From Nakaseomyces glabratus (taxonomy: Eukaryota; Ascomycota; Saccharomycetes; Saccharomycetales; Saccharomycetaceae): DNA of 64,000 nt. A program made the translations under genes and the position numbers. This document shows positions 6,491 to 56,031 of this stretch, piece by piece. Positions within the stretch are counted from its first letter, which is position 1. Each line of letters begins with the position of its first letter. The notes under the pieces are model-generated. The model worked only from the letters and a program-made list of their open reading frames with translations, did not search any database and had not been told where the DNA came from. The stretch is from the NCBI RefSeq assembly GCF_010111755.1, contig NC_088954.1, positions 558,001 through 622,000 on the forward strand, given 5' to 3'.

Positions 6491-9085
6491 TTACGAGAAC
6501 CTAGCATTAGCAATTGTACTGTTTGTAGAACGTTGCTGTTTAATTGGTAATCTTTGTGCATTAGCTGAGTAAGAAGCTTCGAAACTCTGTGAATTCTGGG
6601 ATGCATTATTGCCAGCGTTTGTGGCTGATATTGAATTATATTGATCACCATGTGCCGCGTTTTGTTGCAAAAGGGGATTTCTTTCAGTATCATCTGGACT
6701 TGAACTTTCCGATGTTGGAGTGTTTGCCAACAGCCGGTCTGCTCTGGAGTTCATTCTCATTAAAATAATGAAACCTAACAACAGGACTACAAACAAAGAA
6801 CCTAAGAGCACACCTATACCAAGAGCAACCCCAGGCAAGTCCAACCTTGTTCTCGGTATTTTTAGCCAATCTGGTGATATTGGTTTATCAATTAGGAATA
6901 TACACGAATTGCTTTTTGAGGATGAACAACCCATTTTCAGAATTCTAACTTCCTTATCTTGCCCATCCATGAAACTCAAAAGCCTACTTGTTTGTGAAGC
7001 CTTACGGCAGTATATTGAATCACCACTTAGACTCTTTGATACGGAGTTACAGTCTAAAAGCGACTGGGTATAATTACCTGGAATAATATGTATCTTTAAT
7101 ATCTTTTCAAGGTTAGTTGTATTTACTGACAACCCATCTGATATTATGGAAGATGATGTCGGAACCAAAATAGAGTATTCGTCATCATTATTTAGAATTT
7201 CTCCAATCTGGTTGATACTTTTCAGTAGATGTTTAAATACAGAGCAATCATCTGATTTCATGAGATCATTCAGTGAAATATTAAGCGAATGTGGAAAAAT
7301 AATCTGATCAATTGGATGGATGACACCTTGGTTAAAAAACACATCGTGTAAACTTTCTATTTTAAGTATACCATCCATACTATCCATTTTTACATTAATC
7401 ACACCTTCTGATGTGTCTGATTTGCTGAAATCAACAGTAACCTCATCTCCAAATTTATTATGAGCAGTAAACTCAGTAGTATCATTGTTTGTGTAATGTA
7501 AACCATCTATGATCAAGTTTCTCATTAATTCATTTAGTGCTGTTTTATTACCGCTTAGGTATTCTAAATTTAATTCCATGATATCCCATGATTGGAAACA
7601 TGGTAGGAAGATAGTATATCCATTGTGGTTAGCTTCCAGATCCAAAAGATTAAGTTCATTCAAAAATCTCAAAGACTTGTAGCAGTGATACAGTGGAGGT
7701 ATCGCAGAAACTAAATCTCCTGGTAGCTGTAGGTTATCAGATATAGTGTATATTAATGTGTTTTTTATTACCATTGGGGCAATTGATGTAATCTTATATC
7801 TGTCATTGATAAAATAATCATCACCTTTCTTAGTTATTTTAAACTTTTGGCAATGACCTCCTAATCTCTTATTTGATGAACAAAAGGCTGAATCATATAA
7901 CTTCGACGCTTGGCTTCCTTCACTAGTGATTTCCCTCTCTATCCATATCTTTTCTTCTGCAAAATGGTATAACAAGGACGGCTTAGTATATCCGGTAACG
8001 TCGTCGTTGCCATCTTCGGAAACAAATATCGTAAGATTCTCATCCGATGTTATCATATTCTGTAATTTCCGGAAATAAAGTTCCTTTACGAATTCTGATT
8101 TATTGAGTCCATGCAGATATTTCTCTGCATTAAATTCTACAGTTGAATTCAATCCACTGAAATCACGAAATATATGTGAAACACCTCTATTATACAATAA
8201 ATTCCCCTTAGTTGATTCAATGGTGTCATTAATCTTTACCTGATTCCCATTACTTATAGAGTCAACCCGAATCATTTTGTTATTTAGATCAAAAGATATA
8301 GCCTCTTCTTCTAGTGAGCCCGCTACCATTTCCCTTAGAATCATTGCTTGCATAAGCCTCAAGCTATCTTCTTTCCATGTTCTTGAAATATCTTCACCTA
8401 TACTATTGGTGCTATTAAAACGGTCCAGCAGATAGTTTAGCTCAATTTCATTGAATGCATCATCAAAGGCCATGTCCTCTATCATCAGTATCGTCCTATT
8501 CTGGATCATACTCTCTAATGTTGCATATAAGTTGTTTGTTAACGTCTTGAAGATACCCAGGTCCTTTCTATGCTCTCTATCAATCAATTCAGCAAATCCA
8601 GGAGGGTTATTTATCAGTGACGATATGCCTTGTACAGTAGCGTTCTGAACGTTTGGTAAAAGATCAGGCTCTATAATTTCTATGCCATTGACGTAGGCAG
8701 ATTCTGGGCTCCTTCGACTCAGGAAGAAAGGGAATTTGACATTCTCTGACAAAAACTGCGTCGAGTTGCCAATATCGGAGGTTATCACCATACAATCTCG
8801 TATAATATAGTTATCGATGTCGAATGTACCCATCAGCAGCTCCTGCTCATCCTCCACAAAGGCTGAATTCACTGGTGCCCACAATGTGAAGTTATCCAGC
8901 TCATTCAAGTACGGAATATACCCGCCTTTCTGAATCAGTGTCAGGAATGTCGAGAATTCGACGTTCTGAGATAGTATATCTACTACTGTGGTGAATGGGA
9001 AGTCGTCGTGCTCGTCTTGTCCTCTCCCATTCCTACCCACTGCACACGTCCAGCCAATAAACCATATAAGCACAAAGATATTCAT
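6491..9085 (-). CDS. Fasciclin-domain type I membrane glycoprotein, YLR001C homologue
   Basis: This 864-aa protein matches the position and length of S. cerevisiae YLR001C (861 aa), a vacuole-associated fasciclin-domain protein of unknown function. I start it at the ATG at 9085; the TTG codon before it is not a yeast start. It begins with a signal peptide (MNIFVLIWFIGWTCAVG), then a long lumenal region with many N-glycosylation sequons and fasciclin-like segments, for example FTTVVDILSQNVEFSTFLTL near the N-terminus, INPVNSAF-type turns (WAPVNSAF) and a GVIHPIDQIIFP block near residue 590. One transmembrane helix (about 751-775, VALGIGVLLGSLFVVLLLGF) precedes a polar Ser/Asn/Gln-rich cytosolic tail. 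It lies on the far side of the centromere-like element from DNM1. Confidence 0.88.
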   Translation of the reverse strand: MNIFVLIWFIGWTCAVGRNGRGQDEHDDFPFTTVVDILSQNVEFSTFLTLIQKGGYIPYLNELDNFTLWAPVNSAFVEDEQELLMGTFDIDNYIIRDCMVITSDIGNSTQFLSENVKFPFFLSRRSPESAYVNGIEIIEPDLLPNVQNATVQGISSLINNPPGFAELIDREHRKDLGIFKTLTNNLYATLESMIQNRTILMIEDMAFDDAFNEIELNYLLDRFNSTNSIGEDISRTWKEDSLRLMQAMILREMVAGSLEEEAISFDLNNKMIRVDSISNGNQVKINDTIESTKGNLLYNRGVSHIFRDFSGLNSTVEFNAEKYLHGLNKSEFVKELYFRKLQNMITSDENLTIFVSEDGNDDVTGYTKPSLLYHFAEEKIWIEREITSEGSQASKLYDSAFCSSNKRLGGHCQKFKITKKGDDYFINDRYKITSIAPMVIKNTLIYTISDNLQLPGDLVSAIPPLYHCYKSLRFLNELNLLDLEANHNGYTIFLPCFQSWDIMELNLEYLSGNKTALNELMRNLIIDGLHYTNNDTTEFTAHNKFGDEVTVDFSKSDTSEGVINVKMDSMDGILKIESLHDVFFNQGVIHPIDQIIFPHSLNISLNDLMKSDDCSVFKHLLKSINQIGEILNNDDEYSILVPTSSSIISDGLSVNTTNLEKILKIHIIPGNYTQSLLDCNSVSKSLSGDSIYCRKASQTSRLLSFMDGQDKEVRILKMGCSSSKSNSCIFLIDKPISPDWLKIPRTRLDLPGVALGIGVLLGSLFVVLLLGFIILMRMNSRADRLLANTPTSESSSPDDTERNPLLQQNAAHGDQYNSISATNAGNNASQNSQSFEASYSANAQRLPIKQQRSTNSTIANARFS

Positions 9086-17824: not shown

Positions 17825-19294
17825 ATGTCTCTCACGAATGCTGATGAAACTGTTACTTACGATGCGCTGATCGTCGGTGCTGGTGTCATAGGGCCATGTG
17901 TTGCTACCGCGCTTGCCAGAAAGGGTAAGAAGGTGCTGATTGTCGAGCGTGAGTGGTCTCAGCCAGACAGAATCGTCGGTGAGCTGATGCAACCAGGTGG
18001 TCTGCGTGCTCTGAGGTCTCTGGGTATGATCCAGTCCATCAACAACATCGACGCTTACCCAGTCACCGGTTACACCGTCTTCTACAACGGTGAGCACGTC
18101 GACATCCCATACCCTTACAAGGCTGACTTGAAGCCAGTCGAGAAGTTGCCAGGCTTGGTCCGCGACGGTAACGACAAGGTCCTGGAGGATGCCACCGTCC
18201 ACAAGAAGGACTTCGAGGACGACGAGAGAGAAAGAGGTGTCGGTCTGGTCCACGGTAGATTCCTGAACAACTTGAGAAACATCTGCGCCGCTGAGCCAAA
18301 CGTCACCAGACTACAGGGTAACGTCGTCGAGATCTTGAAGGACAAGAAGAACGAAGTCGTCGGTGCCAAGGTCGACGTCGACTCCCGTGGTAAGGTCGAC
18401 TTCAAGGCCCACTTGACCTTTGTCTGTGACGGTATCTTCTCCCGTTTCAGAAGAGAACTACACCCAGACCACGTCCCAACCGTCAACTCCTCTTTCGTCG
18501 GTATGTCCCTATACCACGCCCACATGCCTCATGACATGCACGGTCACGTCATCCTAGGTGACAAGCACATGCCAATCTTGGTTTACCAAATCTCCCCAGA
18601 AGAAACCAGAATCCTGTGTGCTTACAACGCTCCAAAGGTCCCAACCGACTTGAAGTCATGGATGACCAAGGACGTCCAACCATACATTCCAAAGACTCTA
18701 AGACCATCCTTCGACGACGCTTTGGCCCAAGGCAAGTTCAAGCCAATGGCCAACTCTTGGTTGCCAGCTAGACAAAACGACGTCACCGGTCTGTGTGTCA
18801 TCGGTGATGCCCTAAACATGAGACACCCTCTAACCGGTGGTGGTATGACCGTCGGTCTAAACGATGTTGTCCTATTGATCAAGAAGATTGGTGACTTGGA
18901 CTTCAGCGACCGTGAGAAGGTCTTGGACGAATTGCTAGATTACCACTTCGAAAGAAAGAACTACGACGCCGTTGTCAACGTCTTGTCTATTTCCCTATAC
19001 TCCCTATTCGCCGCCGACAGCAAAAACTTGAAGGCTCTACAAAAGGGTTGTTTCAAGTATTTCCAACGTGGTGGTGACTGCGTCAACTTGCCAGTCGCTT
19101 TCCTGGCTGGTGTCCTACCAAAGCCATTGCTATTGACCCGTGTGTTCTTCGCCGTCGCTTTCTACACCATCTACTTGAACATGGAAGAACGTGGTTTCCT
19201 AGGTCTGCCAATGGCTCTATTGGAAGGTATCATGATCTTGATCACCGCCATTAAAGTCTTCACTCCATTCTTGGTTCGTGAATTGATCGGTTAA
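17825..19294 (+). CDS. ERG1: Squalene epoxidase
   Basis: Erg1 is the FAD- and NADPH-dependent monooxygenase that converts squalene to 2,3-oxidosqualene in the ER and lipid droplets, the target of terbinafine-type allylamines. The 489-aa product (496 in S. cerevisiae) has the dinucleotide-binding GAGVIG (18-23) with the acidic strand end VLIVER (37-42). The DG motif is CDGIFSRFRREL (about 201-212) and the second FAD motif is GDALNMRHPLTGGG (327-340). The C-terminal 80 residues contain two hydrophobic segments (around LPVAFLAGVLPKPLLLTRVFF and MALLEGIMILITAIKVF) that anchor it to the membrane. Codon use is strongly biased (GGT, GCC, GTC, AAG), suggesting high expression. Sterol-response elements lie upstream. 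Gene order PBP1-ATF2-ERG1-CBP4 matches S. cerevisiae. Confidence 0.97.
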   Translation: MSLTNADETVTYDALIVGAGVIGPCVATALARKGKKVLIVEREWSQPDRIVGELMQPGGLRALRSLGMIQSINNIDAYPVTGYTVFYNGEHVDIPYPYKADLKPVEKLPGLVRDGNDKVLEDATVHKKDFEDDERERGVGLVHGRFLNNLRNICAAEPNVTRLQGNVVEILKDKKNEVVGAKVDVDSRGKVDFKAHLTFVCDGIFSRFRRELHPDHVPTVNSSFVGMSLYHAHMPHDMHGHVILGDKHMPILVYQISPEETRILCAYNAPKVPTDLKSWMTKDVQPYIPKTLRPSFDDALAQGKFKPMANSWLPARQNDVTGLCVIGDALNMRHPLTGGGMTVGLNDVVLLIKKIGDLDFSDREKVLDELLDYHFERKNYDAVVNVLSISLYSLFAADSKNLKALQKGCFKYFQRGGDCVNLPVAFLAGVLPKPLLLTRVFFAVAFYTIYLNMEERGFLGLPMALLEGIMILITAIKVFTPFLVRELIG

Positions 19295-38124: not shown

Positions 38125-40455
38125 TTAGATATGGATAACGAGTGTAAATATAATCAGTATGAGTCTCCAAAACGACTTTAATGTAGTAGCTTCTCCTTCA
38201 AATATCGACACAGAGTGGGAAGAGGTTACTGTTCTCGAGGATCCCACCGGAGACACTATAGTGGGGCTGGTTGGTAGGTCAGATTCACTATCCGGTGTCG
38301 ATGTCTCCCCTGCTGACTCAACGGTTTCTCTTGCTGGCGATTTCTCAACAGCAGTCTTAGTTGATGGGATTGGAGCAGTGGACTTGGCCTGTGTAATCAC
38401 TGCAGTCACAGGGCAACTGTGCTCAGTAATTGTCACTGTCTTAGCTGAACCTACGTAGATACTTTCAGGTGGACCAGCCTCAAGTTCTACAGGAATCATA
38501 GAAATACCAGTTACAGTGGCATGTACAGTCTCCTTGATGTACTTAGTTACCGTTATTGGAGCATTCTCTGAGATAGTAGATAGCACCGAAATGTTTCCGT
38601 TAATGGTATGTGTCACCGTTTCTCGCAAGACAGTAGTAACAGTGATATAATTGCTAACCAAGGCGCTGTCCTTACCCGTATGTATTTCATTGGAGGCGTT
38701 ATTCCAAGGTGAATTTATGGAAATATTTGTTGCTGCCAAGTTCTGTTGCAGGGTCGTTTTATAAACTGTCGTGATTATCATTGATTCAATGGCATGTGGT
38801 GTAGTCACACTAATAGACCATGTGCTGTTATATCGGCATCTTTCTGGCAAGACCGTCAAGGTTGAAGTTGTTGTTAACGTGCGTTGAGCTGTTGTAGTCG
38901 TTGTGACTGTGTCTGGTGTGTTTTCGCAATCTGTGTACACGGCAGGAGGGCAAGCTAAGAATTCATTGTCAAACACGGTAAAAGTTGTTAACACAGTCTC
39001 TGTTCTGTTATATGTAAATGTTACATTAGTTGTTAAAGTTGATAGTATACTTTCGACAGCTGTTTCCGTTTTGGTTTGAGTTTCGACAGCAGTGACCCAA
39101 GTTGTATTGTTCAACTGAATAAAAGAGGTTATATTTAGATATGCTGTATCAGTTACAGTTACTGTCGCCGTATCGGTCATTTTTACCGTTTCTATTGTAG
39201 AGAGAGTGAGACTAATTAGCTCCGTGATAGTACTAAAAACCTCTTTAGTTGTATAGTGGGTTGCTTCTTTAAAAGTCGTTTTCTGGACCGTATTAGTTAC
39301 AGTCTCAAAATCGGTTTCTGTTATCGTTTGATTTTCAAATTCTGTAGTAGTAGTTGTAGAACGATCAATAATTGTGGATGTGATATAAAGAATACTGTAA
39401 TCAATGCTATTGACGCTTAGATACTTTGTATCATAAACGATATTTGTGATGGTTTCATTAACATATGAAGTTATTGTACGAGATGTTATGTCCGTCCGTG
39501 TTACTACATCTGTGGTGTGAGTAACAGACGTGATGTATATTGTCTCGCTATATGTTTCGGTAATACTAGCAGTATTGGTGATCGTCTCTGTTGTTTTTTG
39601 AATTTCTGTCGTTGATTTTGTTTCTGTTGTCAGTGTGGTTTTAATTTCAATCTCAGTCTGCGTTTTAAACTTAGTTTCCGTGGTTAAAAGTGTCTCAACT
39701 TCTATGGTTGTTGTTGTCGTAAACTTCGTCGCAAGTTGTGTTATTGTTGTTAGTTCGGTCTTAGTTGTAACTTGTGTATCAATTTGGATTTCGGTTATCA
39801 CCTCAACTTCTGTGGTGAGTTTAGTTTCCGTAGTTAGTTCAGTAGTGACCTCGGTTGCTGTCTCAGTAGTTAATTTCGTTTCAGTGGTCACTGTGGTCTC
39901 AACCTCGGTCTCTGTTTCGGTGGTGAGCTTAGTTTCCGTAGTTAGTTCAGTAGTGACCTCGGTTGCTGTCTCAGTAGTTAATTTCGTTTCAGTGGTCACT
40001 GTGGTCTCAACCTCGGTCTCTGTTTCGGTGGTGAGCTTAGTTTCCGTAGTTAGTTCAGTAGTGACCTCGGTTGCTGTCTCAGTAGTTAATTTCGTTTCAG
40101 TGGTCACTGTGGTCTCGACTTCAGTTAAAGTTGTCAATGAAGTTTCCAAATCAGTTCTGGTGGTACGAGTAGTTTCCGTTATTGTGACCGTTATTGTTAC
40201 TTCAGCAGCATGTGGAGGCGGATCTTCTGGCTTCGTTGGAGGTAGGTCTTCAGGTATCATGGGAGGCGGATCTACTATGTTGGGTATATTAGGGGGAATA
40301 GATGAGGGTGACAAAACTGTCTTAATAACACAAGAAGGGCATATTCTTGTAGTGATTGTAGTTGTTACTTTTATTGTTCTAGTCGATTCCTGTGCATTCC
40401 CTTGAATAGCACCCAAACTTAGTACCAACAGATATACTAAAACTTGTGCTAACAT
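38125..40455 (-). CDS. Thr-rich GPI-type cell-wall protein (adhesin-like) with tandem repeats
   Basis: A 776-aa secreted protein with no S. cerevisiae counterpart at this place. It has an N-terminal signal peptide (MLAQVLVYLLVLSLGAIQGNA) and then a short Cys pair (CPSC at 37-40 region) and a Pro-rich stretch. The long body is dominated by Thr with Glu and Val in a TTETKLTTETATEVTT style. The C-terminus ends in a hydrophobic segment (SFWRLILIIFTLVIHI) typical of a GPI-attachment signal. A 36-aa repeat (108 bp) is present about 2.8 times. Later Cys residues occur in FLACPPAVYTDCEN, PERCRYN and TEHSCP. It is probably a heavily O-glycosylated wall protein; a ligand-binding domain is not evident, so adhesion is only inferred. 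It interrupts the RIM8-ALG13 neighbourhood. Confidence 0.8.
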   Translation of the reverse strand: MLAQVLVYLLVLSLGAIQGNAQESTRTIKVTTTITTRICPSCVIKTVLSPSSIPPNIPNIVDPPPMIPEDLPPTKPEDPPPHAAEVTITVTITETTRTTRTDLETSLTTLTEVETTVTTETKLTTETATEVTTELTTETKLTTETETEVETTVTTETKLTTETATEVTTELTTETKLTTETETEVETTVTTETKLTTETATEVTTELTTETKLTTEVEVITEIQIDTQVTTKTELTTITQLATKFTTTTTIEVETLLTTETKFKTQTEIEIKTTLTTETKSTTEIQKTTETITNTASITETYSETIYITSVTHTTDVVTRTDITSRTITSYVNETITNIVYDTKYLSVNSIDYSILYITSTIIDRSTTTTTEFENQTITETDFETVTNTVQKTTFKEATHYTTKEVFSTITELISLTLSTIETVKMTDTATVTVTDTAYLNITSFIQLNNTTWVTAVETQTKTETAVESILSTLTTNVTFTYNRTETVLTTFTVFDNEFLACPPAVYTDCENTPDTVTTTTTAQRTLTTTSTLTVLPERCRYNSTWSISVTTPHAIESMIITTVYKTTLQQNLAATNISINSPWNNASNEIHTGKDSALVSNYITVTTVLRETVTHTINGNISVLSTISENAPITVTKYIKETVHATVTGISMIPVELEAGPPESIYVGSAKTVTITEHSCPVTAVITQAKSTAPIPSTKTAVEKSPARETVESAGETSTPDSESDLPTSPTIVSPVGSSRTVTSSHSVSIFEGEATTLKSFWRLILIIFTLVIHI
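39811..40116 (-). repeat. 108-bp in-frame tandem repeat in the wall-protein gene
   Basis: Two full, almost identical copies lie at 39901-40008 and 40009-40116, with a partial, more diverged copy at about 39811-39900. Each codes 36 residues with the pattern VETTVTTETKLTTETATEV. Near-identity suggests recent expansion. Confidence 0.9.
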
Positions 40456-42027
40456 TTCACTAGTTTGATGCTAGAAGAGTGTCAGTTCACTCGAAATCCA
40501 GCTCATTAGTCAATTTTAGAGAAATCAAAATACGCCTGATGGCAATTACATTTCATAAATTACATTTTAATTCCTTTTATATTTCATAGTATCATTTAGC
40601 ATTATAATAATCGTAAAAACCTCTTGACTTTCACTTAAAATATTGCCAAAAACATGTTATCTGATCAATTTAACCACCATGCACAGTTTTTAGCATAGTT
40701 GATAACCACACATCCATGATTTGAGTAACCTCATTCAGGGCTAGGCCGCAAGACGCTTGTGTAAAGCGTACTCTATCAACGCGACAACGGAGCTTTAGAT
40801 ACCTTAGAGCGCCATTATCCATTTATCCATTATCTTATTCGATTTGAAACACAGTCTTGATTGATCTGACATAATATGTGTATTGAAATCCAAGATCAAA
40901 GCCGATCCAACAAAGCTTTGTTATTGATCATCGGGTAAATTTCTGATTATCATCAAAAGGATGTGCATCCCCAAAAAAGAATAATATGCAAAACTGCTCA
41001 AAAACACAAGTTATCATATAGAATCTCTATAATCTTGTAATTTACCCATTTGGGAAGATTACATGACCTAGCAAAATAAGTCTACTCAAGCTGAGTGCTA
41101 AATTCTGTTTCAGTAGTTTAAAATCTTAGAGTTGCGCTACTTTCTTTCAGTGCTTTCTGAATTTCCAAAAATGACATGAATTTCTCGACCTCAAAGACCA
41201 TGGACTTGATGCAAGGTTATATTAAATGCCATTTAGTTAAACAATTACCATGATGTCACCAGTGATTTACCATGAAGGAGCCAGTTTGGGTGGAGTTCCC
41301 ATTCGCATGAAATCAGATTTACACTTTAAGATTGTTCGATATAGTCTTTAGAGCTAGGCTCACCAGAATCTATACCCCAATGCTCTAACACATCTTACAA
41401 TCTAGGTACATAATAAAGTTATGCAGTTGAATATTCTGGGTTGTAGATATCAAGTCAGGTTCGCAGAAAGTGTGCGGTATAGATAGATTTTCAGCTTGTT
41501 TTAAGTTAATGAATTGCAACTATGGTTACAATGGAAGCATTGAAACAAGCTGGGAAGTGTAAAAGTTGTTGTATTTCTGGACGTTCGAGTATAAAGTATA
41601 TTTCATTTTGTTAGCTCGAACTATGGTAGGCATATGTTCTACAAATATTCAACCAATGTTTAGCTATTGGGTATAATATTGCAGTTGCTCCTATGACTGA
41701 CATTTTGAGGTATGGAAGTTTTAGCAGTACCTGTAATTAATCCTTTACAAATATTTCTACAATAAGTGTGACTCAGTCTTATGTTCTATGGTAGTTATTT
41801 AATAACAAAAGTAAATGTAGCGTTTGCATAAGGGCATGAACAAATGCTCTACTGAAAGGCTTTAGTGTATCGATATGTGGCTGTAGATAACCTCTCACAG
41901 TTACAGACTATGTATCGAATCTTTCTTGAGGAATATGCATTAATAAATGAGCATGCTAAGATTTTCGAAGAATAATCTTAGTGAACATGATGCAATACGC
42001 ACCATCAACATACCATCAAATTAGTAT
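40456..42027. other. Gene-poor region, left of tRNA-Val
   Basis: 1572 bp, AT-rich. The first few hundred bases should hold the wall-protein promoter. A short tandem ATCCATTT/ATCCATTA occurs near 40818-40835. No frame over 60 codons, RNA gene or recognisable transposon is visible. Confidence 0.45.
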
Positions 42028-42101
42028 GGTTTCGTGGTCTAGTCGGTTATGGCATCTGCTTAACACGCAGAACGTCCCCAGTTCGATCCTGGGCGAAATC
42101 A
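42028..42101 (+). tRNA. tRNA-Val (anticodon AAC)
   Basis: 74 nt. Acceptor GGTTTCG pairs with CGAAATC (42094-42100), the anticodon stem CTGCT/CGCAG region encloses TTAACAC with AAC, and AGTTCGATCCT forms the TPsiC arm. T-run terminator follows (42105-42113). It matches the S. cerevisiae tRNA-Val(AAC) sequence as I remember it. Confidence 0.97.
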
Positions 42102-44314
42102 TTTATTTTTTTGATTCCTTAGTATTTGCTAAGGCACATATTAATTGCAGGTCATTGGAATAGAACAAAACATTAAAGCTAATTTAAATTACATCAATAA
42201 AGTGATTTTTTAGCGGTTCTCGACTCACACTATGGGCGATTCCTTCATGAGGAAATCATCGAAAATACTTTAAAATAATTCTATTATATTACAAATATCT
42301 AACATAGTCAAAAAACTGAACGATCGAGGTCGGCATAGTTGTCTATTTCAAGCCTTCATACTTGTCATACACATTCAACTAAGCACACTTCGATAAGAAT
42401 TATGCTATATATGATGCTGCACTTTCCCTCAAATTTCAAGAGAAAAGGTTATTAAATTAACAGCTTCAAGCTAATTGTAGTGGCTGGAAAAAATGCATAA
42501 AATACCAGATTCTATCCATTTTAGAAAGTATTCCACATACCAATCCATCGCTTGTATGAAGCATAATAACAAAAACGCTATTCGAATTTGAAATTTGAGG
42601 TAAAGAAAACCCCTTCATAGAGGCTGTAAGTGGTCAAATAATTTGCAGTGCAAAACAAACTATCTGCCGGGAAGGTTGCTATTAGCCGCTTCTTCCTCAC
42701 CCTTGGAGATACACATAGATTTGGTAGATCTATGATGTAGGTAATAAGGGATAGAGAAATCTTAGGCATCCAATTATGCACAGGTAGTTAAGTTCAAGTC
42801 GATTCACCATCCCTGCAATGCTATGAAATTAAGCAAAGCATTTTAAGCAGCATTTGGATGACAATTCCCACAAAACCGTGTTTCTCAATATGTGACTGTA
42901 GTTACCTTTCTCTTATTAATTGTTAGACCAAAGGTAGGAGACAATCAATAGCATCGAAGCATTGATATTAGGGTAAAAACAGAAATTGAGATTGTAAACA
43001 TATTCATCTAAGCAACAAACATCATGTATAGCGGTCTTCTCAGATCCAAGGTATGGATTAAAAATCTAAAAAGTTAAATGGATCAGAATGGGATCATGAA
43101 CTAAAGAAGACAATGCATATTGTCCATCTACACATGTACAATAGTCTGCTAGTAACACACTATCAGTATCCATGCAAATGAAAAGCAACCCTCCCTACTT
43201 TCATACAAACAACCAAGAAAGGCACAGATATTTTTAGTTTTTTGCCTCTTATGCTATAGCCCTTTTATACAAGTATTTCAGATATGAATCGCATCTCAAT
43301 TTATGAAAGAAGAAGGGTTCATCCATAAATAATGATTGCACACATGGGTTGTTTACGACACCGAAATTTACATAATAAAGCAAAATCTCTACCAACTGTA
43401 GAAAAATAGAGGGAGCATATGCAGAAGAAACATTTCAGGTTGGCTAGATCAGATTTGATCTTGATGGCCTTCGCAATTACATACTAGAGAATGCTTTTGA
43501 AATCTCGGGGGAAATATTACATCGCTGTTTTAGAGCTATGACCATCTATGATCTAATGTTTTAAACATCTTCAATAAGCCTCGCGGTGAACAGTTTCAGT
43601 ATATCAACATATCGGACATATAATACACTTCCCATACAAGTACTAGAACAAATTATATAAGAGTTAGGACAAATTTGGACAATAGAATTGATGGGATATG
43701 ATTTCACAAAGCTGTAGATCAAAGCATATTTAAGCTTCTCACTGATGAATAGTGTTAGGCGGTCTCAACAAATGGACACCGACTATTAGGCACTCTTGAC
43801 TGTTCGTTGATGAATAAAAAAATTCATACAATACAGGTCGATGAAAAAAGAGTTGCGACCCATGATTTCTCGTAGATTCGTGTTTAGTACTCTCTCTTGA
43901 ACAACATTTCAACTAGCGCGAAGGTGATACGTGTCCTTTTAATTATAGGCACATGGTAGACAAAAGAGCAATCATAAAACATTAACATAGAAACAAGTAA
44001 TACTTTAACTAGTCCATAAATAGGGTTACAATTTAGCGGAGTTTCATGTATACTATGCTAGTAGAAAAGGCCCAAATCCAACAGGTTGAGTTAACTGTCT
44101 GCTACCTATTGCCAGAATAATCACAACGTAAACAATGACATGATGACTACCGTTTAGTAATTTAGTAATAAAACAGCTACAAGGCCCAAAGTAACTGGAG
44201 AAGGTGACGTATACCACTGTTATAAGTCCGAGTATTGTATAAGTCAAGGACATAACGACAGAAAGTTATTGCTCTTCCTTTCTCGGGAAAGTGTGCAAAG
44301 ATTTCTAATTTAAT
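42102..44314. other. Gene-poor region, right of tRNA-Val
   Basis: 2.2 kb, the longest stretch here without any gene I can support. Two 60-70 codon minus-strand frames (42578-42781, 44053-44253) have no recognisable similarity. A weak 25-bp similarity links about 41870-41893 and 42889-42911 (core ATGTG-CTGTAG). No repeats, LTR ends or structured RNA stand out by eye. Confidence 0.45.
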
Positions 44315-51613: not shown

Positions 51614-51951
51614 CTTTCAGTATTTTAAACCTGCAGTAACCCTGTAGTCAAATTTTTAAGCAACAATAAACGTACTAGCTCAATAAAATATCCAATATTT
51701 TACAATTCTGACTAGCCTCTAATCAATAAATATTTGCAAATACGAGCCCAGAAACTTCCCGTCTGCACAATTTTTTAAAGAACAGTAAAACTGCTTTCGA
51801 GATCACAATGCTATTCAGATAAACTCTAATTCCTACAAGCAATTGTTCCTGCATCATGCTCTGTATTCAACTTTTGCACTATTAGTGCTGATATGGGCAA
51901 TGCTCATCGCATATTTTCAAAAAAAAATTTGAAGAAGTTTAAAAAAAAAAG
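51614..51951. promoter_or_regulatory. TYW3 upstream region with a PAC-like box
   Basis: 338 bp between TYW3 and the 3' end of the tRNA-Arg gene. GCTCATCGC (51902-51910) is a PAC core with an A-rich RRPE-like stretch beside it (51921-51932), about 290 bp from the TYW3 ATG. The T/A runs at 51941-51950 include the tRNA terminator (minus strand). Confidence 0.5.
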
Positions 51952-52023
51952 CACTCACGATGGGGGTCGAACCCATAATCTTCTGATTAGAAGTCAGACG
52001 CGTTGCCATTACGCCACGCGAGC
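51952..52023 (-). tRNA. tRNA-Arg (anticodon UCU)
   Basis: 72 nt on the minus strand. Acceptor GCTCGCG pairs with CGTGAGT (two G-U pairs), the anticodon stem TCTGA/TCAGA encloses CTTCTAA with TCT, and GGGTTCGACCCCC is the TPsiC arm. It matches the S. cerevisiae tRNA-Arg(UCU) as I remember it. A run of T on the minus strand (51941-51950) terminates it. It lies at the break between TYW3 and the MET17 block. Confidence 0.97.
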
Positions 52024-52769
52024 TTAGTAATTAATATAATAAAACATATAGGTACTAGAAACATATCTAGCAGGTCCTCTAAAAAAAAGAAATGTGAAAA
52101 ATGCACTGGGAACAATGCAGCTAACTCATATTTAGTGCCAAACACAAAACTTGAGTATTTAGCAAAAATGGCAAATATACCAAGAATTCTACATAAATTG
52201 TTAAATATGATCTAAAAATACCACATATCGACCCTAAATTCCCATAGCGGTGACACATTTAGTTTTACGTATAGACCTTGGTTAGTAAAGTCCGGAGTTC
52301 TTCCACTGGGGGAATTTCCATTTGACAGCAATTTAGATTGGCAAAGAAATTATTAGAAGCCAAGCACATTTAACTTGCGTTGGAAATGTTCCTCACTCTC
52401 GGAGTTTTTACGTAGAAACTCGGACTACCCAAATTGGAATTTTTAGGTTTAGGTAATATTTAGCTTGACTTGCCAATGTTATCTATTGGCAGAATTATAA
52501 CTTGAGAGAGTCTATACTATTAACAAAATTTATATGAGTACTTACATCCTAGAATCAAATACTTAGCAAAACAGTATTGCTAATATCAGTCTCGAGTGTT
52601 GGACTCTGAATTTTTGGAAACGTATAAATAGGCGTCGAGGTTCAGGAATTTTCCATTACAATCCATATTCCATTATAAACTCTTTCTCTCTCTCACATTA
52701 TATATTTTTATATATATTTATTTTAATTCTTATAACATAACAAGAAATCAAGGAAAGCTACTAAGAGTC
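52024..52769. promoter_or_regulatory. Upstream region of the secreted orphan
   Basis: 746 bp. A near-perfect 20-bp palindrome (GAGTTTTTAC, then GTAGAAACTC) lies near 52411-52430. AGTCCGGAGTT near 52290 is roughly inverted as AACTCGGACT near 52425. A pyrimidine tract (CTCTTTCTCTCTCTC) is followed by TATATATTTATTTT just before the gene, and TATAAATA occurs at 52624-52631. These suggest a strong, regulated Pol II promoter. Confidence 0.5.
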
Positions 52770-53813
52770 ATGAAAGTTTCTAATATCAACTCCGTTTTAT
52801 TTCTCGCTTCTCAGTTGGCTTCTGCCGCTGGCGGTGAGATTGTCACTGTGACTGAGACATCTACAGTCTGCTCCACCAAGACCCTAACAGTGCCAATGAC
52901 TGTCACAGTCACGCCAAAGCCGGCGCCTCCTGTGCGTCCTTCCAAAGTCGCGAAGCTCGCCAATGAGATGAACTTCATCTTCAACATGGCTGGTGCCATC
53001 AAGTCGTGTCTGCCTGACTCTGGCATAACTGTGCCACCCAGCTGGGCGCGCGTGCAATGCACATTCTATGTGTTCAACCTGATGCTTTCCCTAACCATTA
53101 ACATCATTGGTGGTAAGGACCACCACGAGTTTTGGAAGAAAAGGCAACAGCAATGGAGGGAGTGGGAGGAGAAGTACTGGCAAGAAGCGGGCGACGGCGA
53201 AGACGAGGGCGATTGCTCTGATGAGGAAGAGAGCTCCACTGACCCTCACGGGAATGCGGTGGCCACCAACGACAACGCTTTGCTATCTTTCAAGACCACG
53301 AAGATGCTCATGGACAAGCTCGGTGTGCAGGTGTACCCTTACATGAACGAAACCACTTTGCAAGAGTGTGTGCACTACAAGTTTGTCAAGGACCGCTACA
53401 AGGACTTACTGGGCCAGGACCTGGTCGAAGGCACCGTGTGCTTGTCTCAGCATGGATTAGCAACTTTTGTGAAGTTGCCAGACAACAGTGCAGAAGACAC
53501 AGAGGACGGCAAAGACAGCGGTACTGGTGCTACGGGTGGTGAACTCTTGGACTACCAAAGCTTCATGAACAAGTTGCGGCCACAGATGTACGTGAAGAAG
53601 TTCGACAAGTACCTGCACAACATCAAGCAGGCCAAGTTCATGACCACCTGGCAGCTCATCAACTTCAAGCAGTACTCCAAGGACATCATGCGCGAGCTCG
53701 CCTATGTGACGGACCAGCTGCGGGACCCCGACCACAAACACATCTCCTTCGAGCTCAAAAACAAGGAGGACCCAGCGGATCTCACACCAATGATGAGTTT
53801 CAACATATTGTGA
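52770..53813 (+). CDS. Secreted protein of unknown family
   Basis: I do not recognise this 347-aa protein, and S. cerevisiae has no gene between its MET17 and the neighbours. It starts with a signal peptide (MKVSNINSVLFLASQLASA), then a Thr/Val segment (GGEIVTVTETSTVC and VPMTVTVTPKPAPP) of the type used in fungal wall proteins. The rest is not Thr-rich. It is a folded-looking domain with a hydrophobic stretch (about 88-114, VQCTFYVFNLMLSLTINIIGG), a Trp-rich helix (FWKKRQQQWREWEEKYW, about 117-133) and an acidic loop (GDGEDEGDCSDEEESS). Six Cys are visible (STVC, KSC, VQC, GDC, QEC, TVC). There is no GPI tail. G+C is high (37/60 at 53161-53220) and codon choice biased, which suggests strong expression or foreign origin. 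Confidence 0.75.
   Translation: MKVSNINSVLFLASQLASAAGGEIVTVTETSTVCSTKTLTVPMTVTVTPKPAPPVRPSKVAKLANEMNFIFNMAGAIKSCLPDSGITVPPSWARVQCTFYVFNLMLSLTINIIGGKDHHEFWKKRQQQWREWEEKYWQEAGDGEDEGDCSDEEESSTDPHGNAVATNDNALLSFKTTKMLMDKLGVQVYPYMNETTLQECVHYKFVKDRYKDLLGQDLVEGTVCLSQHGLATFVKLPDNSAEDTEDGKDSGTGATGGELLDYQSFMNKLRPQMYVKKFDKYLHNIKQAKFMTTWQLINFKQYSKDIMRELAYVTDQLRDPDHKHISFELKNKEDPADLTPMMSFNIL

Positions 53814-54555: not shown

Positions 54556-56031
<1,476 letters not shown>

Follow-up and report, generated by a model that had tools for sequence, protein, structure and literature searches.

Results

Genes and features at the locus

The gene described here lies in a 64,000-nucleotide stretch of Nakaseomyces glabratus DNA, the whole of which we analysed and refer to as the window (G000:C4:558001-622000, within a 12.7-Mb, 13-contig genome). 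Its reading frame opens with an ATG at 52770 and closes with a TGA at 53811-53813, exactly where the first-pass annotation of this sequence had placed it. The tRNA gene and the MET17 gene that the annotation had set on either side were recovered as tRNA-Arg(TCT) and a Cys/Met PLP-enzyme gene of the MET17 type (Pfam), and the pyrimidine tract and TATA-like element that it had described are present upstream (Table 1).

To the left of the target, Pfam identified genes of the ALAD, TFIIS, CSTF2, arrestin, glycosyltransferase-28 (ALG13 type), proteasome AAA, MIF4G and TYW3 types, and to the right the Cys/Met PLP-enzyme gene is followed by aconitase and PI4-kinase genes. We take the left-hand genes to be the YGL040-050 block and the right-hand genes to be the YLR303-305 block (MET17-ACO1-STT4) in S. 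cerevisiae order; ORFs further to the right resemble, by eye, what are presumably the next YLR genes. Because a YGL040-050-type block here meets a YLR303-305-type block, the target and tRNA-Arg(TCT) lie in a rearrangement interval, and the synteny break noted earlier holds on the Pfam assignments read against the S. cerevisiae gene order. A subtelomeric location was rejected, as the gene stands among ordinary genes about 56 kb from the end of a contig of 667,900 bases.

Table 1. Coordinates of features at the locus (window positions) and their basis
Feature	Position	Strand	Basis or remark
Junction interval between two gene blocks, with tRNA-Arg(TCT)	51614-52769		
tRNA-Arg(TCT)	51951-52023	-	
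TATAAATA, promoter-like	52623-52630	+	sequence match without computed significance
15-base pyrimidine tract	52680-52694	+	sequence match without computed significance
Gene for 347-aa secreted-type protein, stop included	52770-53813	+	ORF; conserved in three clusters
Signal-peptide-like N-terminus, residues 1-20, boundary approximate	52770-52829	+	own hydropathy rule; hydropathy peak from residue 9
Thr/Val-rich segment, residues 21-56, Cys34	52830-52937	+	47% Thr+Val
Proposed alpha-like region, residues 57-125, Cys80 and Cys97	52938-53144	+	Cys aligned in 3/3
Hydrophobic helix (predicted), residues 97-115	53058-53114	+	hydropathy
Sixteen consecutive invariant residues 116-131, Trp-/Lys-rich	53115-53162	+	alignment, 3/3 sequences
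KKR125, possible Kex2 site	53136-53144	+	in 3/3; pattern from sequence
Acidic variable stretch, residues 133-170, Cys149	53166-53279	+	net charge -13 over 126-170
C-terminal region, residues 171-347, Cys200, Cys224, sequon N193	53280-53810	+	Cys and sequon in 3/3
Second basic pair, residues 276-277: KK; relatives KR and RR	53595-53600	+	alignment
Cys/Met PLP-enzyme gene	54703-56031		Pfam

Elsewhere in the window, two minus-strand ORFs begin with a signal-like sequence. One (38125-40455; 776 aa) is Thr/Val-rich, has no Pfam match and contains a 108-bp repeat array of 2.9 copies at 99% matches; the other (6491-9085; 864 aa) encodes a Fasciclin domain (PF02469, E 4.2e-23). The 3.86-kb interval at 40456-44314 holds no ORF of at least 150 aa and two of at least 60 aa. 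ARAGORN places a tRNA-Val(AAC) in this interval (42027-42102, plus strand); with the Rfam tRNA model, the other four window tRNAs alone reached the gathering cut-off, and no further Rfam family did so within the window. A telomerase-RNA template was rejected (0 matches to the repeat), as was a point centromere: the core pattern matched twice where 0.42 matches were expected, two were also reached in 4 of 100 shuffles, and both matches fall inside long ORFs.

Conservation and codon use

The target matched its own genome once, at itself, and a paralogue family was rejected accordingly. Relatives were sought among 5.8 billion proteins with three queries, namely the target, the alignment and the sequence downstream of the Thr/Val segment, and were confined to three clusters. 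The first (P0001) comprises 30 sequences, which lie on 28 contigs named Nakaseomyces glabratus, 99% identical to the target and of the same length; as far as the representative that we read for the cluster indicates, the frame is not disrupted in these sequences, disruption in other strains, together with a lack of expression, being what the first-pass annotation had named as evidence against it. The second (P0002) is a 352-aa sequence from N. bracarensis with 48% identity, and the third (P0003) a 375-aa sequence from a 1,560-base Logan contig with 44% identity. Both align to the target over its full length with indels in frame, and the ORF is for this reason more than a chance one. No paper naming its locus tags (three taken from the cluster records, and CAGL0D06380g, B1J91_D06380g and GVI51_D06270 guessed from the numbering) was found in the main texts of the open literature, in which one paper names the MET15 and ACO1 loci.

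The strong codon bias claimed for the gene proved to have two components that behave differently. Its GC3 is very high, at 0.697, ranking second among the 26 genes of the window and third among 107 ORFs of at least 150 aa (median 0.389), these being drawn from 294 kb of the same genome rather than from the whole of it; the 37 G+C in 60 at 53161-53220 were also counted as described. Preferred-codon use, scored with the S. cerevisiae set, is 0.575, seventeenth of the same 107 ORFs (median 0.465). The value expected at the target's GC3 and composition is 0.467 (sd 0.025), and the excess over it makes some translational selection likely, much less than on the genes for MET17 (0.757) and aconitase (0.876) or on the gene at 17825 (0.818). 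The step from codon bias to abundant expression holds up poorly: preferred codons exceed expectation, but most of the bias is GC3, and we therefore do not accept it as proof of abundant expression. The highest GC3 of the 26 window genes (0.791) belongs to an alcohol acetyltransferase-family ORF (PF07247; 15118-16812, plus strand) with ordinary preferred-codon use (0.465), so that high GC3 here is uncoupled from translational codon choice.

High local GC lengthens open frames, and with the downstream intergenic DNA also GC-rich (0.471) the ORF might have been a chance open frame rather than a gene. The full-length relatives, the conserved cysteines, the in-frame indels and a preferred-codon use about 4 sd above the GC3 expectation all speak against this; conservation of the frame refutes it, and we regard it as vanishingly improbable. 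Judged by its matches, the ORF is a real gene, and its product would be a secreted preproprotein found so far in the glabrata group alone.

Anatomy of the predicted protein

The N-terminus is signal-like by our own hydropathy rule, in agreement with the signal peptide read there earlier, and the Thr/Val-rich entry segment that follows was likewise borne out; in the three-species alignment it ends with an invariant R56-P57-S58. The 19-residue hydropathy peak reaches 1.54 at residue 95 in the target and 1.79 and 1.83 at matching places in the relatives, and two Asn residues lie inside the hydrophobic segment. A Cys pair marks the start of this predicted central helix in all three sequences, as a sequence pattern. 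The invariant block directly after it includes Trp122, KKR125 and Trp129, KKR125 being a basic site 10 residues past the helix.

The Cys-containing domain with a Trp-rich helix and an acidic loop that had been proposed for the remainder is reflected in six cysteines in total, four Trp residues (122, 129, 132 and 137) and a strongly negative stretch. This acidic stretch is poorly conserved, but one Cys within it is retained in every species; the Cys of P0003 falls in a shifted alignment column. A GPI-type tail was sought in the last 25 residues, which have no hydropathy peak in any of the three members.

Family and fold searches

No credible family emerged from Pfam, NCBIfam or PDB sequence searches or from protein-database searches, as expected from the initial impression of a protein matching no described family; these results support the view that a secreted-type protein not described before is encoded at the synteny break. 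DUF5341 was absent from all three members in Pfam scans to E 5 and 10, a setting in which HMMER filters drop most weak matches. A search of the own genome with the PF17276 profile found no match, but it found none in any of the 14 control genomes either. No PDB chain linked the protein by sequence to a toxin. Moreover, the K2-type C-terminal motif is absent, because the last Cys is residue 224 of 347 and none occurs in the final 123 residues; the same is true of both relatives. On these tests, the protein is not a member of the K2/DUF5341 family.

Two AlphaFold models built from the three-sequence input had pLDDT of 36.3 and 38.2, and because of these values we drew on them, cautiously, for the succession of predicted helices and strands alone. 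Fold searches gave no usable match and are uninformative at such pLDDT. The order of elements in these weak models fits a helix-and-sheet core with a C-terminal strand-helix-strand-strand.

A layout filter requiring a signal, a Cys pair, a helix and KR/RR was written after the target had been seen. It was passed by one of the 107 ORFs, the target itself, and by 11, 31 and 31 of 20,000 residue shuffles of the three members. Given the helix, the chance rate is 3.3% for the Cys pair alone and about 6% for the basic site. With rates of this size and a post hoc filter, one or two chance passes per whole yeast genome would not surprise us.

Discussion

The arrangement of parts leads us to propose, tentatively and at less than even confidence, that the product is secreted, processed by Kex2 and disulfide-bonded, with a layout resembling that of the K21/KHS killer preprotoxins, and that it is killer-toxin-like and membrane-attacking. 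The signal peptide would direct the protein into the secretory pathway, where disulfides would most likely join Cys80 to Cys97, Cys200 to Cys224 and Cys34 to Cys149. A Kex2 cut after KKR125 would release an N-terminal chain bearing the hydrophobic helix, still tied to an acidic C-terminal chain. Since K21/K66/KHS-type preprotoxins have their parts in this order, the most likely job would be membrane attack on competing yeasts, in which the C-terminal part would bind to the surface of the target and the hydrophobic helix would insert. The basic sites are retained, KKR125 in all three members and KK, KR or RR at 276-277, but the conserved block straddles KKR125, and in both models (pLDDT 36 and 38) the proposed cut falls inside a helix. 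That the strongest conservation spans the proposed site is explained at least equally well by a membrane-anchoring flank.

That flank is the core of one alternative, in which the protein would be a single-pass type I membrane protein with residues 97-115 spanning the bilayer, the Lys/His/Trp flank 116-131 acting as a stop-transfer and residues 126-347 cytosolic. The hydropathy peaks of all three members and an invariant basic, Trp-rich flank directly after the segment are what such a protein would have, but two Asn residues lie within the proposed span, and both the single Cys that every species retains in the variable acidic stretch and the N193 sequon, present in all three members, argue for a secreted C-terminal part and fit an extracellular location better. 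We consider a membrane protein of this kind unlikely. The retained cysteines and sequon also speak for a non-toxic secreted or wall-associated protein, in which the Thr/Val segment would be an O-mannosylated spacer and the rest a surface or matrix domain evolving rapidly in this genus. The Thr+Val content of residues 21-56 and the orphan, restricted nature of the family also point that way, but all three members lack a hydrophobic GPI-type tail, and a wall role needs no buried-type hydrophobic helix followed by KKR; we hold this explanation to be possible, if rather improbable.

If the toxin-like reading is true, a chromosomal killer-type gene is present in a yeast that is both a common commensal and an opportunist, and it belongs to a sequence family that surveys built on DUF5341 would miss. 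It is tempting to speculate further that the gene founds a subfamily of chromosomal killer toxins in the glabrata group, outside DUF5341, with a Trp/Lys helix after the inserting helix, a proposal that we think distinctly unlikely. Torulopsis glabrata was reportedly once found to secrete killer activity, although our literature search did not recover the report. The target could be a candidate determinant of that activity, and would then supply a gene for what has reportedly long been known as a phenotype alone. If the toxin-like reading is false, what stands is a secreted-type protein restricted to the genus, in which 16 residues form a strikingly conserved block.

Comparison with known systems

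The protein shares with Thr-rich yeast wall proteins a signal-like N-terminus and a Thr/Val-rich segment; unlike them, it has no GPI-type tail and is mostly charged rather than Thr-rich. With the K1 superfamily, SMK and KP4, as described in PMC13211469, it may share a predicted central helix, strands, a long helix and two C-terminal strands, in models of pLDDT 36 and 38, but it has no sequence match among PDB chains.

The closest parallel in layout is with the K2 family (K2, K21/K66, the chromosomal KHS1; DUF5341), whose members have a signal, then an alpha region that is hydrophobic and carries a Cys pair at the central helix, a basic site after it and a long C-terminal part. The target differs in having neither DUF5341 nor the C-terminal K-x-C ... 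E-x-Y ... GG-x-D ... C motif, which in K2 corresponds to the conserved residues K326, C328, E346, Y348, G353, G354, D356 and C359 (PMC13404059); it has instead the Thr/Val-rich segment and the invariant Trp/Lys block. K2 cleavage sites sit in exposed loops according to the same paper (PMC13404059).

The length is nearly the same, and the order of parts agrees. In PMC13211469, K21 is divided into delta (41-59), alpha (60-129), gamma (130-240) and beta (241-346), and KHS has alpha at 64-132 and beta at 238-350; the alpha ends at 129 and 132 compare with the basic site at 125 in the target, and the lengths of K21 (346), KHS to its beta end (350) and K2 (362) with the 347 residues of the target. 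The hydrophobic spans given for K66 are 21-42, 62-85 and 97-119 (PMC6213463), the last of which compares with the target helix at 97-115. Alpha domains are further described in PMC13211469 as having in common a disulfide by which the beginning of the central helix is pinned, with C37-C53 in SMK and C109-C129 in K2 as examples (PMC13404059); the counterpart in the target would be Cys80-Cys97, 17 residues apart and ending at the helix.
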